From contig JAHDCX010000003.1 of the NCBI GenBank assembly GCA_020629635.1, positions 205,480-269,479 of the forward strand: 64,000 nt of DNA, given 5' to 3'. The stretch comes from Acidimicrobiales bacterium (GTDB taxonomy: Bacteria > Actinomycetota > Acidimicrobiia > Acidimicrobiales > SHLQ01). A model generated the notes under the pieces. That model was not told the DNA's origin, did not search any database, and saw only the letters and a list, made by a program, of their open reading frames with translations. This document shows, piece after piece, positions 39,275 through 61,738 of the stretch; position 1 is the first letter of the stretch; each line of letters starts with the position of its first letter. The translations under genes were made by a program, and so were the position numbers.

Positions 39275-39913
39275 TCAGGTGCCGACGGCGGTTCCCTGGT
39301 TCCGCACGGTCCCCGTGATCAGCGTCGTTTCATCGACATGGCCGACGAGGCATTGCACGGTCCGGTCGCCTTCGTCCCAACTGCTCTCGACCGGTACGAA
39401 CGTCCAGACCGCCCAGTCGCTCCGAACCGAATCGCCAACGAAGAGGGCGAGCTGTTCGCTGCACCACTCGTCGCCGAGCTCGAACGTCTCATCGATCCCT
39501 GGGTAGGGCATCCCGGACATGTCGAACCACAGCGAGTCGGTCACGGCAAACACCTCCATCGCATGAGGCTCGGCACAGTCGACCACGGGCACGAACAAAA
39601 CCTCGAGAAACTCCCCGTCGTCGTCGCCAAACCAGTCACGAACGCACTGGCCAGCATCGAGACTGGTGACGAGCGAGGTGTTGTCGACGAAGCGGGCGAT
39701 CATGATGCCAGTCGCCGCGAACGAGACGATCACGAGCAGAAGCACGATGGAAATCGCTCGTTTCGCCCGGCCGTCGAGCGGTTCGGAGACCGCAGGTTCG
39801 TCTGACGAATGGTCCGGGACCTCGCCCATCACGAGGGGAGGCGGAAGCGGAGGCAGCGTTGTGCCACGAGTATTCACATCGGTGAAATCGGCATTTCGAG
39901 GAGACTCCCCCAT
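39275..39913 (-). CDS. Septum-formation-domain membrane protein
   Basis: 212 residues from the ATG at 39913; an upstream ATG at 39970 would add 19 residues but crowds the divergent gene. An N-terminal proline/acid-rich cytoplasmic part precedes one membrane helix ('AISIVLLLVIVSFAATGIMIARF', about residues 68-90). The external domain has 'SLDAGQCV', 'VPVVDCAEPHAMEVFAVTD', 'WCSEQLALFVGD' and 'VQCLVG'. This Cys-containing pattern matches the actinobacterial septum-formation family, whose biochemical role is not well defined. Confidence 0.8.
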   Translation of the reverse strand: MGESPRNADFTDVNTRGTTLPPLPPPLVMGEVPDHSSDEPAVSEPLDGRAKRAISIVLLLVIVSFAATGIMIARFVDNTSLVTSLDAGQCVRDWFGDDDGEFLEVLFVPVVDCAEPHAMEVFAVTDSLWFDMSGMPYPGIDETFELGDEWCSEQLALFVGDSVRSDWAVWTFVPVESSWDEGDRTVQCLVGHVDETTLITGTVRNQGTAVGT

Positions 39914-39977
39914 GGGCGGTCCGACCCATGAGTCGCTTGGGTCGACTCGGCGGTGTGAACTGCGCCACACTTTCGTG

Positions 39978-41306
39978 ATGGCTGCTCGTATCTCCCCCGG
40001 GTCGTTCGCTCCGGGACGAAACCTCCGTCATCAACGCGGCGACGCGACCCCCGAATGGGCCCTCGCCGGTGGCCCCAACCATCATCTCGAGCTCGGTCCG
40101 GGTCCGCTCGCGGTCGCCGAATGGGAGTCGGCGGGGTTGACGCTCCCGGATCTCGAGGCGATTCGTCGACATCGCCTCCACCGCGTTCGGACGACGTTGG
40201 AGGAGTTCGGCTACGACGGCGTCCTGGTGATGGACCCGATGAACATCCGCTACATCACCGACACCACGAACATGCAGCTGTGGGTGATGCACAATGCGGC
40301 GCGCTACGCCTTCATGAGTGCGGATGGGCACGTCGTGCTCTGGGACTACGACGGGTGTGAGTTCCTCGCCGCCCATCATGACCACGTGAGCGAGGTCCGT
40401 CCGGCGATCGGCTCGACGTACTTCCTGGCCGGTGACCGCTTCGGGGAGATCGCCCAACGGTGGGCAGACGACGTCGCCGAGGTGATTCGTGAGCACTGTG
40501 GCGATGACGCCCGGGTTGCGGTCGATCAGGTCAACTGGCTCGAGGGTCAGGCCTTGTCGGGTCATGGCGTCCGAATCGAGCGTGGCCAGCAGCTGATGGA
40601 GCTCGCTCGCGTGATCAAGTGCGACGACGAGATCGCGGCGCTGCGCTGTGCTGGCCATGCCTGCGTCGAGACGATGCGCGAGATGCGAGAGTCCGCCGAG
40701 CCCGGGATGACGGAGAAGGACATCTGGGCGATGTTGCATGCGGGCAACATTCGCCGAGGCGGCGAGTGGATCGAGACGCAGATTCTCGCGTCCGGTCCTC
40801 GGACGAACCCGTGGTTCCAGGAAGCGTCCGCTCGGGTCGTCGAGAACGGAGACATGCTCGCCTACGACACGGATCTCGTCGGCGCGTACGGCATGTGCGT
40901 CGACATCAGCCGAAGCTGGGTGATCGGCGATCGACCACCAACGGCCGAACAGAGCCGGGTCCATGGTCTCGCCCTCAAGCAGATCGAGACGAACATCGAG
41001 CTGCTGCGGGCCGGAGTCACCGTCGAAGAATTGACCTTCAAGTCCTGGTACCCACCGGACACGGAGTATCGGCACTACTCGTGCCTGTTCCATGGGGTTG
41101 GGCAATGCGATGAGTACCCCGAGGTGTATTTCCCTCCGGCATGGGATGACTGGGGCATCGACTGCACCCTGGAGCCGGGAATGGTGATGACCGTGGAGAG
41201 CTACGTCGGGCCGCGCTCAGGCGGCGAGGGCGTCAAGCTCGAAGAACAGGTCGTCATCACCGACGACGGGTATGAACTGCTTGCGCACTATCCGTTGGAC
41301 TTGTGA
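39978..41306 (+). CDS. dddP: DddP-like DMSP lyase (M24 metallopeptidase fold)
   Basis: 442 residues from the ATG at 39978, the length of known DddP proteins (about 445). M24 fold without peptidase context. Conserved stretches that recall DddP are 'MDPMNIRYITDTTNMQLW', 'LHAGNIRRGGEWIETQILASGPRTNPWFQE' and 'YDTDLVGAYGMCVDISRSW'. The six metal ligands of DddP are all present with matching spacing: Asp297, Asp299, Asp309, His372, Glu407 and Glu422. DddP cleaves dimethylsulfoniopropionate to DMS and acrylate in the cytoplasm of marine bacteria. No DMSP transporter or acrylate genes adjoin it. A generic Xaa-Pro-peptidase-like role remains possible. Confidence 0.78.
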   Translation: MAARISPGSFAPGRNLRHQRGDATPEWALAGGPNHHLELGPGPLAVAEWESAGLTLPDLEAIRRHRLHRVRTTLEEFGYDGVLVMDPMNIRYITDTTNMQLWVMHNAARYAFMSADGHVVLWDYDGCEFLAAHHDHVSEVRPAIGSTYFLAGDRFGEIAQRWADDVAEVIREHCGDDARVAVDQVNWLEGQALSGHGVRIERGQQLMELARVIKCDDEIAALRCAGHACVETMREMRESAEPGMTEKDIWAMLHAGNIRRGGEWIETQILASGPRTNPWFQEASARVVENGDMLAYDTDLVGAYGMCVDISRSWVIGDRPPTAEQSRVHGLALKQIETNIELLRAGVTVEELTFKSWYPPDTEYRHYSCLFHGVGQCDEYPEVYFPPAWDDWGIDCTLEPGMVMTVESYVGPRSGGEGVKLEEQVVITDDGYELLAHYPLDL

Positions 41307-41599: not shown

Positions 41600-42484
41600 C
41601 TACTCGGCAGGTGCGAGCGACGACCTGAGCGCGCCGACGGCACCGATCGCCTCGGCGAGGGCCTCAGGGGCCACGAGCAGATTGACGGCGACCTCGTCCG
41701 CGCCGGCGTCCCGGTAGCGGGCGAGCCCGGCGGCGACCTCGTCGATCGAGCCGATGAGGCACATGTCGGCCGCTTCGGACGCGCCTTCTCGCTCCATCAC
41801 GGCCCGATACGAGGGCAGCTGGGGGTAGATCGCGAGGAGCCGATTGACGCGGGAGCGTGCTGCGTCGACATCGTCGGTGATCACGACCGGGACGCCCGCG
41901 ACCACGCGGCCGCCAACGCAGCCCGGCCGGATGTGCGACTCGATCGTGGTCGGCCCCGTCATCCAGGTGATCGTGCCCGACGTGCGCTCGGCGGCAAGCG
42001 CAAGCATCCGCGGACCGAGCGCAGCGAGCATGACGTCAGGCGCCTCGGACGGGACGTCAATCATCGTCGAATGGCTGACCCAGGTACCGCTGGTCTCGAC
42101 CGCCTGGTGCTCAAGCAGTGGCAGCAGGGCGTCGAGGTACTCGACGAATCGACTGTACGGCTTGTCCCAGGGCAACCCCCACCGAGCCGTGACGACGGGT
42201 TCGTGGTTCACGCCGATGCCGAGCGTCAGGCGTCCACCGCTGATCTGATTCACGGTCCGGGCCTGCTGGGCCATCGTCTGGGGCAGCATCGTTTGCATCG
42301 CCATCACCGACGTGCCGAGCCCGATGTCGGGGACACGACTCGCCACCACACCGAGGGTCACCATCGTGTCGGCGTTCATGACCTGAGGCATCCAGAAGCG
42401 GTCAAACCCTGCCGCACGAGCGGCCTCCGCGTGATCGACCGCCTCGGCGACGATGGTGGGCGAGTCGAACAGTGAAAGCAACAT
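41600..42484 (-). CDS. LLM-class (probably F420-dependent) oxidoreductase
   Basis: 294-residue TIM-barrel protein of the luciferase-like monooxygenase family. The ATG at 42484 begins MLLSLFDSPTIVAEAVDHAEAARAAGFDRFWMPQ, the usual N-terminus; the upstream extension is non-coding. 'GRLTLGIGVNHEPVV' corresponds to the family's cofactor-phosphate region. In actinobacteria most such proteins use coenzyme F420. The substrate is unknown. It is divergent from a methyltransferase gene 78 bp away. Confidence 0.87.
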   Translation of the reverse strand: MLLSLFDSPTIVAEAVDHAEAARAAGFDRFWMPQVMNADTMVTLGVVASRVPDIGLGTSVMAMQTMLPQTMAQQARTVNQISGGRLTLGIGVNHEPVVTARWGLPWDKPYSRFVEYLDALLPLLEHQAVETSGTWVSHSTMIDVPSEAPDVMLAALGPRMLALAAERTSGTITWMTGPTTIESHIRPGCVGGRVVAGVPVVITDDVDAARSRVNRLLAIYPQLPSYRAVMEREGASEAADMCLIGSIDEVAAGLARYRDAGADEVAVNLLVAPEALAEAIGAVGALRSSLAPAE

Positions 42485-42562
42485 GGACTGATGATCCCAC
42501 TCCGGCGCCGGCGGCGTCGAGGCCTGACCAGCGCGGATACCAGGACGAATATCATCGGGCGA

Positions 42563-43135
42563 ATGTCGGACGCACAACGATGGGACGAGCGCTGGTCAGC
42601 GGTTGCCGAGCCCGGCGACATCGTCGCCCCACCGCTCCTCGAGCGGCTGACGCCAGCAAAAACCACCTCCCCACGCACCGTCGACCTCGCCTGCGGCCTC
42701 GGCGACGCCGGACTCACGCTTGCCGCGCGTGGCCACCAGGTCACGTTCGTCGACGTCAGCCAGCAGGCGCTCGACATCGTCGACCGGCGCGCCACCCAAC
42801 GGGGACTCGACATCGAGCTCCGCTGCATCGACCTCGCCTCGACCAGCCCTCCGGCGGGGCCGTGGGACGTCGCCGTCCTCCTCCACTACCTCGACCGCCC
42901 GCTGCTCGGCCAACTGCGTTCGGTGATGGCTGCCGAGGGTCGGCTCGCCTGCGCCATCGCGACGACGACCAATCTCGAGCGCCACGAACGGCCGAGCAGG
43001 CGGTTCCTCCTCGAGCCCGACGAACTTCCGGCGCTTCTCGGGTCGGGATGGGTGATCGAGCATCACGATGAGCAGTGGCGAGCCAACGACGCGCACGAGG
43101 CCTGGCTCGTGGCCAGAGCCAGCGATTCAGTCTGA
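42563..43135 (+). CDS. SAM-dependent methyltransferase
   Basis: 190 residues from the ATG at 42563 (MSDAQRWDERW). Motif I is 'TVDLACGLGDAGLTLAARGHQVTFVDVS', followed by an acidic residue at the ribose position and 'GPWDVAVLLHYLDRPLLGQL', the pattern of small class I methyltransferases of the TehB/thiopurine type. The substrate is not identifiable. The 3' end overlaps the convergent isochorismate synthase gene by 9 bp. Confidence 0.85.
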   Translation: MSDAQRWDERWSAVAEPGDIVAPPLLERLTPAKTTSPRTVDLACGLGDAGLTLAARGHQVTFVDVSQQALDIVDRRATQRGLDIELRCIDLASTSPPAGPWDVAVLLHYLDRPLLGQLRSVMAAEGRLACAIATTTNLERHERPSRRFLLEPDELPALLGSGWVIEHHDEQWRANDAHEAWLVARASDSV

Positions 43136-61652: not shown

Positions 61653-61725
61653 GGGGGTGTAGCTCAGTTGGTAGAGCGCCTCGGTCGCATCGAGGAGGCC
61701 AGGGGTTCAACTCCCCTCACCTCCA
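61653..61725 (+). tRNA. tRNA-Ala (anticodon CGC)
   Basis: Complete cloverleaf by hand folding: acceptor gggggtg pairs with cacctcc, including the G3-U70 pair that identifies alanine tRNAs. D-arm is tagctcagttggtagagc, anticodon stem cctcg/cgagg with loop gtcgcat (anticodon cgc, reading GCG), T-arm agggg-ttcaact-cccct and discriminator A. CCA is not fully encoded (accg follows). A -10-like TACGAT lies about 13 bp upstream. Confidence 0.96.
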
Positions 61726-61738
61726 CCGCTTTCCCCAC

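Follow-up and report, generated by a model that had tools for sequence, protein, structure and literature searches.

A DddP-like M24 metalloenzyme of an Acidimicrobiales bacterium lies beside the clade of characterised DMSP lyases and most likely serves N-methylated betaine breakdown

The window analysed here, a 64,000-nucleotide stretch of an Acidimicrobiales genome, contains an intact open reading frame (39978–41306, + strand; ATG at 39978, stop codon ending at 41306) for a DddP-like M24 protein of 442 residues. A sequence-only reading had taken the product for a DddP-like DMSP lyase; it is a DddP-like M24 protein with the metal ligands and the putative catalytic pair, but it is not a member of the DddP family, since it scores 488 bits against a threshold of 600 and falls outside the DddP clade. 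We regard it as a dinuclear-metal enzyme of the creatinase/prolidase fold, from a clade that adjoins the characterised DMSP lyases without including them, whose role is most likely the breakdown of N-methylated, betaine-type compounds. N-methylated zwitterions are the likeliest substrates because the enzymes linked to the relatives of the gene belong to types that take methyl groups off nitrogen. DddP-type chemistry is plausible for the protein, as the aligned ligands and Tyr/Asp pair are kept.

Pfam assigns two domains to the protein, Peptidase_M24 (PF00557, 5.5e-30) and Creatinase_N (PF01321, 5.7e-07). All six metal ligands of DddP are present with the family spacing, as had been noticed from the sequence, and they align with those of the solved DddPs. 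D297, D299 and D309 (codons within 40866–40904, +) correspond to D295, D297 and D307 of RlDddP and RdDddP, and E407 and E422 (41196–41243, +) to E406 and E421 of RdDddP. The remaining ligand, H372, lies between Y367 and D378 (41076–41111, +), and these three residues match H371, Y366 and D377 of RlDddP, Y367 and D378 being the retained counterparts of the proposed catalytic pair. In RdDddP the ligands are assigned as D295, D297, D307, H371, E406 and E421, and Tyr366 and Asp377 are the proposed catalytic residues (PMC4108388). The long DddP signature is likewise present, as RRGGEWIETQILASGPRTNPWFQE (R259–E282; 40752–40823, +, computed from the start codon), with Q268 departing from the R of the DddP clade. 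These marks are real but do not discriminate between a lyase and its relatives, because the same residues occur in relatives encoded beside betaine genes; ligands and signature were rejected as proof of a lyase on that ground.

A sequence search of the PDB gave RlDddP (4rzy, E = 1.7e-116) and RdDddP (4b28, E = 9e-116) as the best solved relatives, the window protein being 45% identical to the solved DddPs. An AlphaFold model (mean pLDDT 88.7, 44 aligned sequences) matched the same two enzymes in Foldseek with E of about 3e-50 and TM scores of 0.87–0.89, and matched peptidases, the ectoine hydrolase DoeA and creatinase with TM scores of about 0.6–0.7 by query length. Neither the PDB sequence search nor the fold search can split a lyase from a relative, because all non-DddP solved structures are distant. 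The window protein resembles the DddPs (RlDddP, 4rzy/4s00/4s01; RdDddP, 4b28; family model NF043017) in fold, in the six ligands, in the Tyr/Asp pair and in most of the signature, whereas it differs in clade, in family score, at 13 clade-fixed positions and in the gene neighbourhoods found among its relatives.

That the protein is an ordinary M24 Xaa-Pro dipeptidase or aminopeptidase, as its two Pfam domains and the annotation of several relatives as 'Xaa-Pro peptidase family protein' might suggest, is highly improbable given that DddPs are its nearest solved relatives (E about 1e-116) and Xaa-Pro peptidases reach only 5e-20. In the alignment its Q281 pairs with a His of the peptidase-like paralog L004, at a position that we take to be the place of the peptidase His. 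It also keeps D299, a ligand that is not conserved in methionine aminopeptidases (PMC4108388), and RlDddP itself shows no Val-Pro cleavage (PMC5395565).

Against NF043017 the window protein scores 487.9 bits (E = 2.6e-146), below the equivalog cut-off of 600. Across its class, 42 of 395 genomes have a match at E 1e-80 and none of the 395 reaches the cut-off. Among the 55 genomes or records behind the sampled loci 21 score above 600; 24 of the 55 were chosen for the DddP clade, and 20 of these pass while the other four have best scores of 579–594. Copies placed in branches other than DddP all score 527 bits or less in these 55. A Roseibium MAG (G464) carries both kinds, a 783-bit DddP, assigned by score and not by tree, together with an MttB-linked copy (L093) that scores 503 bits; the two types therefore need not be interchangeable.

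For the phylogeny, 155 extracted proteins were reduced to 142 by removal of identical ends and, with three references added and the window's own duplicate taken out, gave 144 rows. A first quick tree used 110 of these, 34 near-duplicates having been dropped by hand; a second used 69, hand-picked to span the groups, with the long branches L003, L004, L029, L068 and L130 excluded. A tree with characterised DddPs and their relatives had been proposed in the sequence-only reading as a check on the lyase assignment, and it goes against that assignment. The DddP rows of the 69-row tree form one side of a branch (100/100; recovered in 100% of 200 bootstrap trees) that does not include the window protein, which groups with 32 other rows from Acidimicrobiia, one Chloroflexota and a few Proteobacteria (100/98). 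Roseibium/Ahrensia rows make up a third branch (99/97). The tree does not fix how the three branches are ordered; a sister relation between the window's branch and DddP is therefore conceivable. The 110-row tree has the same outline, but L124 falls outside the DddP group. The tree covers the characterised bacterial DddPs; fungal DddPs and Oceanimonas DddP2 are absent from it.

When 23 window-clade and 27 DddP-clade rows, hand-chosen, were compared, 13 positions were fixed differently (85% or more in both): 36, 42, 110, 143, 162, 268, 284, 285, 296, 307, 359, 376 and 405. Position 268 is Q in 23/23 window-clade rows and R in 27/27 DddP-clade rows, and other window/DddP pairs are Y296/F, M307/C, Q376/L and T405/C. 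Several of these sites are close to the active-site residues in sequence: 296 is beside D297, 307 is two before D309, the clade-specific Q376 is between H372 and D378 and two before the latter, 405 is two before E407, and 284–285 come just after E282 of the signature. Judged by this adjacency, the clade-fixed positions may shape or line the pocket. Placement outside the DddP clade with loss of substrate-pocket residues had been named beforehand as what would tell against a lyase; the placement and 13 fixed differences were found, but the ligands and the putative catalytic Tyr/Asp are kept.

Five plasmid-borne relatives annotated as Xaa-Pro peptidase (L068–L072; hosts Rhizobium, Paraburkholderia, Pseudomonas MPC6, Terrarubrum and Parasedimentitalea) have the same ligands and Tyr/Asp pair as the window protein. 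Each adjoins one or more genes for a BCCT carrier, a betaine-homocysteine methyltransferase, a member of the trimethylamine methyltransferase family, a Rieske oxygenase or a 4-hydroxyproline epimerase. The betaine-neighbourhood clade (Rhizobium, Paraburkholderia, Pseudomonas MPC6 and Terrarubrum plasmids) differs from the window protein in sequence (39–45% identity), in score (371–440 bits) and in that the DddP model matches only from about position 46–50.

Gene clustering and family scans of the flanks of the relatives found an MTTB-family methyltransferase (MttB) and a protein of 800–850 residues with DAO plus GCV_T domains that is dimethylglycine-dehydrogenase-like (DMGDH-like); further flanking families are a GbcA-like Rieske oxygenase, an IclR regulator, a sarcosine-oxidase-like DAO protein and a class-V aminotransferase. 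Counted by locus, with related genomes not independent of each other, a DMGDH-like gene lies immediately upstream on the same strand (within 350 nt) in 5/30 loci of the window clade, 8/9 of the f54 clade (Acidimicrobiales), 0/5 of other Acidimicrobiia, 5/12 of Roseibium/Ahrensia, 3/6 of the gamma/Chloroflexota group, 1/5 of the betaine plasmids, 0/1 for L130 and 3/32 of the DddP clade, and MttB lies upstream within 4.5 kb in 5/27, 8/9, 0/5, 5/11, 3/6, 1/5, 0/1 and 0/27, respectively. Four loci (L161, L168, L086 and L090) are included although ORF calling missed or merged the gene, which was found by tblastn; in L090 and L091 MttB adjoins on the opposite strand and is not counted as upstream. 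The DddP-clade copies that also sit after a DMGDH-like gene are L138, L146 and L148. At least one gene of the N-methyl-catabolism set (MttB, DMGDH-like at over 50% identity, GbcA-like Rieske, DAO, class-V aminotransferase) is found in the fetched flank of 15/31 window-clade loci.

The full MttB–DMGDH–M24 run has carriers in two phyla, Actinomycetota and Pseudomonadota, and the f54 run also has a formaldehyde-dehydrogenase-like ADH and an enolase-superfamily protein. We found no report of this arrangement in the literature searched. Operon copies of this kind (L087, L089, L094, L097, L098 and L127; Acidimicrobiales, Roseibium and Gammaproteobacteria) belong to the window's branch or a neighbouring one. 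The window gene differs from them in standing alone: no MttB, DMGDH-like or other N-methyl-catabolism gene occurs within about 11 kb on either side, and its neighbours, such as a divergent gene for a Septum_form-domain protein (39278–39970, −) and a downstream gene for a luciferase-like monooxygenase (41603–42577, −), are unrelated context outside the system and include no DMSP or betaine gene.

The orthologous partners are on other contigs of the host genome. The MttB ortholog (58%) is at C4:23000–24484, and the DMGDH-like ortholog is represented by a 71% match at the end of contig C8, with a further piece (65%) at the beginning of C4. Co-occurrence was scored in 98 relatives, with an M24 ortholog defined by 440 bits or more, a rule that gives 21/98 and excludes G024 (367 bits) and the paralogs of G002 and G081; the other thresholds were E 1e-150 for the DMGDH-like gene, 585 bits or more for MttB, E 1e-90 for a DmdA-like gene and the family cut-off for AcuI. 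Kinship was handled by leaving out the window's family, and MAG completeness varies, with which reservations the DMGDH-like ortholog occurs in 19/21 genomes with the M24 gene versus 6/77 without (outside the family 5/5 versus 5/74, Fisher 1.1e-5) and the MttB ortholog in 19/21 versus 3/77 (outside 5/5 versus 3/74, Fisher 2.5e-6). DmdA-like genes give 19/21 versus 3/77 (outside 5/5 versus 2/74), and AcuI over its cut-off 17/21 versus 13/77 (outside 3/5 versus 10/74). The profile ties the M24 gene to methyl-onium catabolism, but betaines and DMSP would both be compatible with it; because the DmdA-like gene follows the M24 gene as closely as the MttB gene does, a role in DMSP use keeps a place among the readings.

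A working DMSP lyase would convert DMSP to DMS and acrylate, with AcuI handling acryloyl-CoA and the DmdA-like proteins forming the demethylation arm. We hold this to be possible though rather unlikely. It accords with the retention of every ligand and of the putative catalytic pair, with the closer fold match to DddP than to peptidases, with the DmdA-like co-occurrence and with the gene content of the host, which has AcuI above its cut-off and three DmdA-like genes (L196:8317–9426, L197:8894–10045 and G000:C4:18476–19564) at 371–404 bits, the DMSP demethylase cut-off being 410. Its main difficulties are the family score and placement of the protein and the clade-fixed changes near the ligands and the putative catalytic Asp. 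The operons of relatives, moreover, encode amine demethylases; DAO-type domains are oxidases of C–N bonds, with no obvious part to play in sulfonium breakdown. The AcuI correlation is weak outside the family, and DmdA-like matches are under their cut-off everywhere except in G081. In G034 and G087 the DmdA-like gene adjoins the DMGDH-like gene, so some DmdA-like matches may belong to the same pathway. AcuI as proof of DMSP use was rejected as weak, the controls Escherichia coli and Bacillus subtilis matching too.

The strongest counterpoint to a betaine role comes from the Fusarium DddP, which produces DMS when expressed in E. coli although it shares just 32% identity with RdDddP (PMC4108388), so that low identity by itself is compatible with lyase activity; the Oceanimonas DddP2 is likewise divergent, and efficient (PMC10989825). 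Also against our preferred reading are the lone copy in the window, the 25/30 window-clade loci that have no directly adjacent DMGDH-like gene, the tracking by DmdA-like genes and the presence of AcuI.

Operon content also bears on a third proposal, in which the enzyme is an amide or amidine hydrolase acting on an N-methylated amino acid, creatinase- or ectoine-hydrolase-like, upstream of the demethylases. DoeA and creatinase, whose substrates are small zwitterions, have the same pita-bread fold (Foldseek ranks 16 and 34), and creatine breakdown likewise uses demethylases of the sarcosine-oxidase type, which occur in the same operons as the M24 relatives. The identity over the Foldseek alignment is 16–19%, however, and DoeA is distant in sequence (44 bits); we consider such a hydrolase improbable.

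For a betaine-type role, the favoured reading, the M24 enzyme would act with the MttB-family methyltransferase and the DMGDH-like demethylase encoded elsewhere in the genome. By analogy with the mechanism proposed for DddP, the two metals would bind a zwitterionic onium substrate through its carboxylate, with D378 as the base and Y367 as a helper. Rather than DMSP, the substrate would be a quaternary amino acid or one already partly demethylated; DMSP could be a weak side substrate at most.

One locus, L082 (3–9260), which carries the second M24 copy of a congener of the window's organism, suggests a homoserine-derived substrate. Its co-directional run encodes a DMGDH-like protein, a DAO protein, a ThrB-like (homoserine-kinase-like) protein, the threonine synthase ThrC, the glycine C-acetyltransferase Kbl, the threonine dehydrogenase Tdh and, last, the M24 protein, and the last three genes overlap by 4 bases. 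A betaine built on homoserine, for example trimethylhomoserine, which forms the head group in betaine lipids of algae, would be consistent with these ThrB, ThrC, Kbl and Tdh homologues. More speculatively, and with considerable doubt, the 'DddP' clade in Acidimicrobiia, Chloroflexota and some Proteobacteria might be a new enzyme of methylated-amino-acid breakdown, possibly releasing homoserine from a homoserine-derived betaine.

The gene dddP is used as a marker of DMS production, and surveys count it in Acidimicrobiia, Actinobacteria and Anaerolineae. Predicted dddP has already been published for Acidimicrobiia, in 2020, when it was found in MAGs of Acidimicrobiia and Anaerolineae at E 1e-50 plus trees with non-functional outgroups (PMC7494906), and again in 2026 (PMC13280387); homologues have also been counted at 40% identity, E 1e-55 and 70% coverage (PMC12904073). 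The window protein would pass either set of cut-offs. The examined parts of PMC13360808 and PMC12596276 name no actinobacterial DddP. The RlDddP mechanism and a Km of 17 mM are described in PMC5395565, and DddPs also cleave DMSOP (PMC10686828). Should the clade do something else, the DMS potential of Acidimicrobiia, Actinobacteria and Anaerolineae would be over-counted, and if its members are methylated-amino-acid enzymes, published dddP counts would measure use of betaines or betaine lipids, not DMS. Should it make DMS, it would be an actinobacterial lineage of DddP-type lyases and a candidate family for the DMSP-cleaving (Ddd+) Actinobacteria reported in 2018 to lack known ddd genes (PMC6309047). 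On its sequence alone, the window gene should not be counted as that of a DMS producer.

The host genome (4.45 Mb, 37 contigs, 96.5% complete) is actinobacterial, in agreement with the sequence-only reading: the closest copies in named genomes (69–75%) are from Acidimicrobiales MAGs. Orthologs are present in 10 of the 11 genomes of the window's genus, its own included, the nine others at 61–75% identity; the eleventh (G002) has a paralog only. The copy in an Ilumatobacter MAG (L080) is at 61%. A 64% copy (L076) in a MAG labelled Granulosicoccaceae (Gammaproteobacteria) falls inside the actinobacterial clade, by gene transfer or through a mislabelled bin. None of 26 pattern matches on viral contigs encodes a relative.

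The window's own genome has two more DddP-like paralogs, at 40% and 36% identity, and the latter (L003) has the same ligands and Tyr/Asp pair as the window protein. The paralog L002/L153 (L153:7240–10068, contig C3 of the host genome) is convergent with an enolase-superfamily gene resembling cis-3-hydroxy-L-proline dehydratase (470 of 500 bits). In genomes of the class, DddP-like genes occur in tandem pairs at L046, L050, L051 and L053, and some of these tandem copies have His in place of Q281. L027 and the second copy of L061 are divergent, with Asn replacing both Y367 and D378 and the ligands kept. The sole tRNA gene found in the window is for tRNA-Ala (CGC), at 61653–61727.
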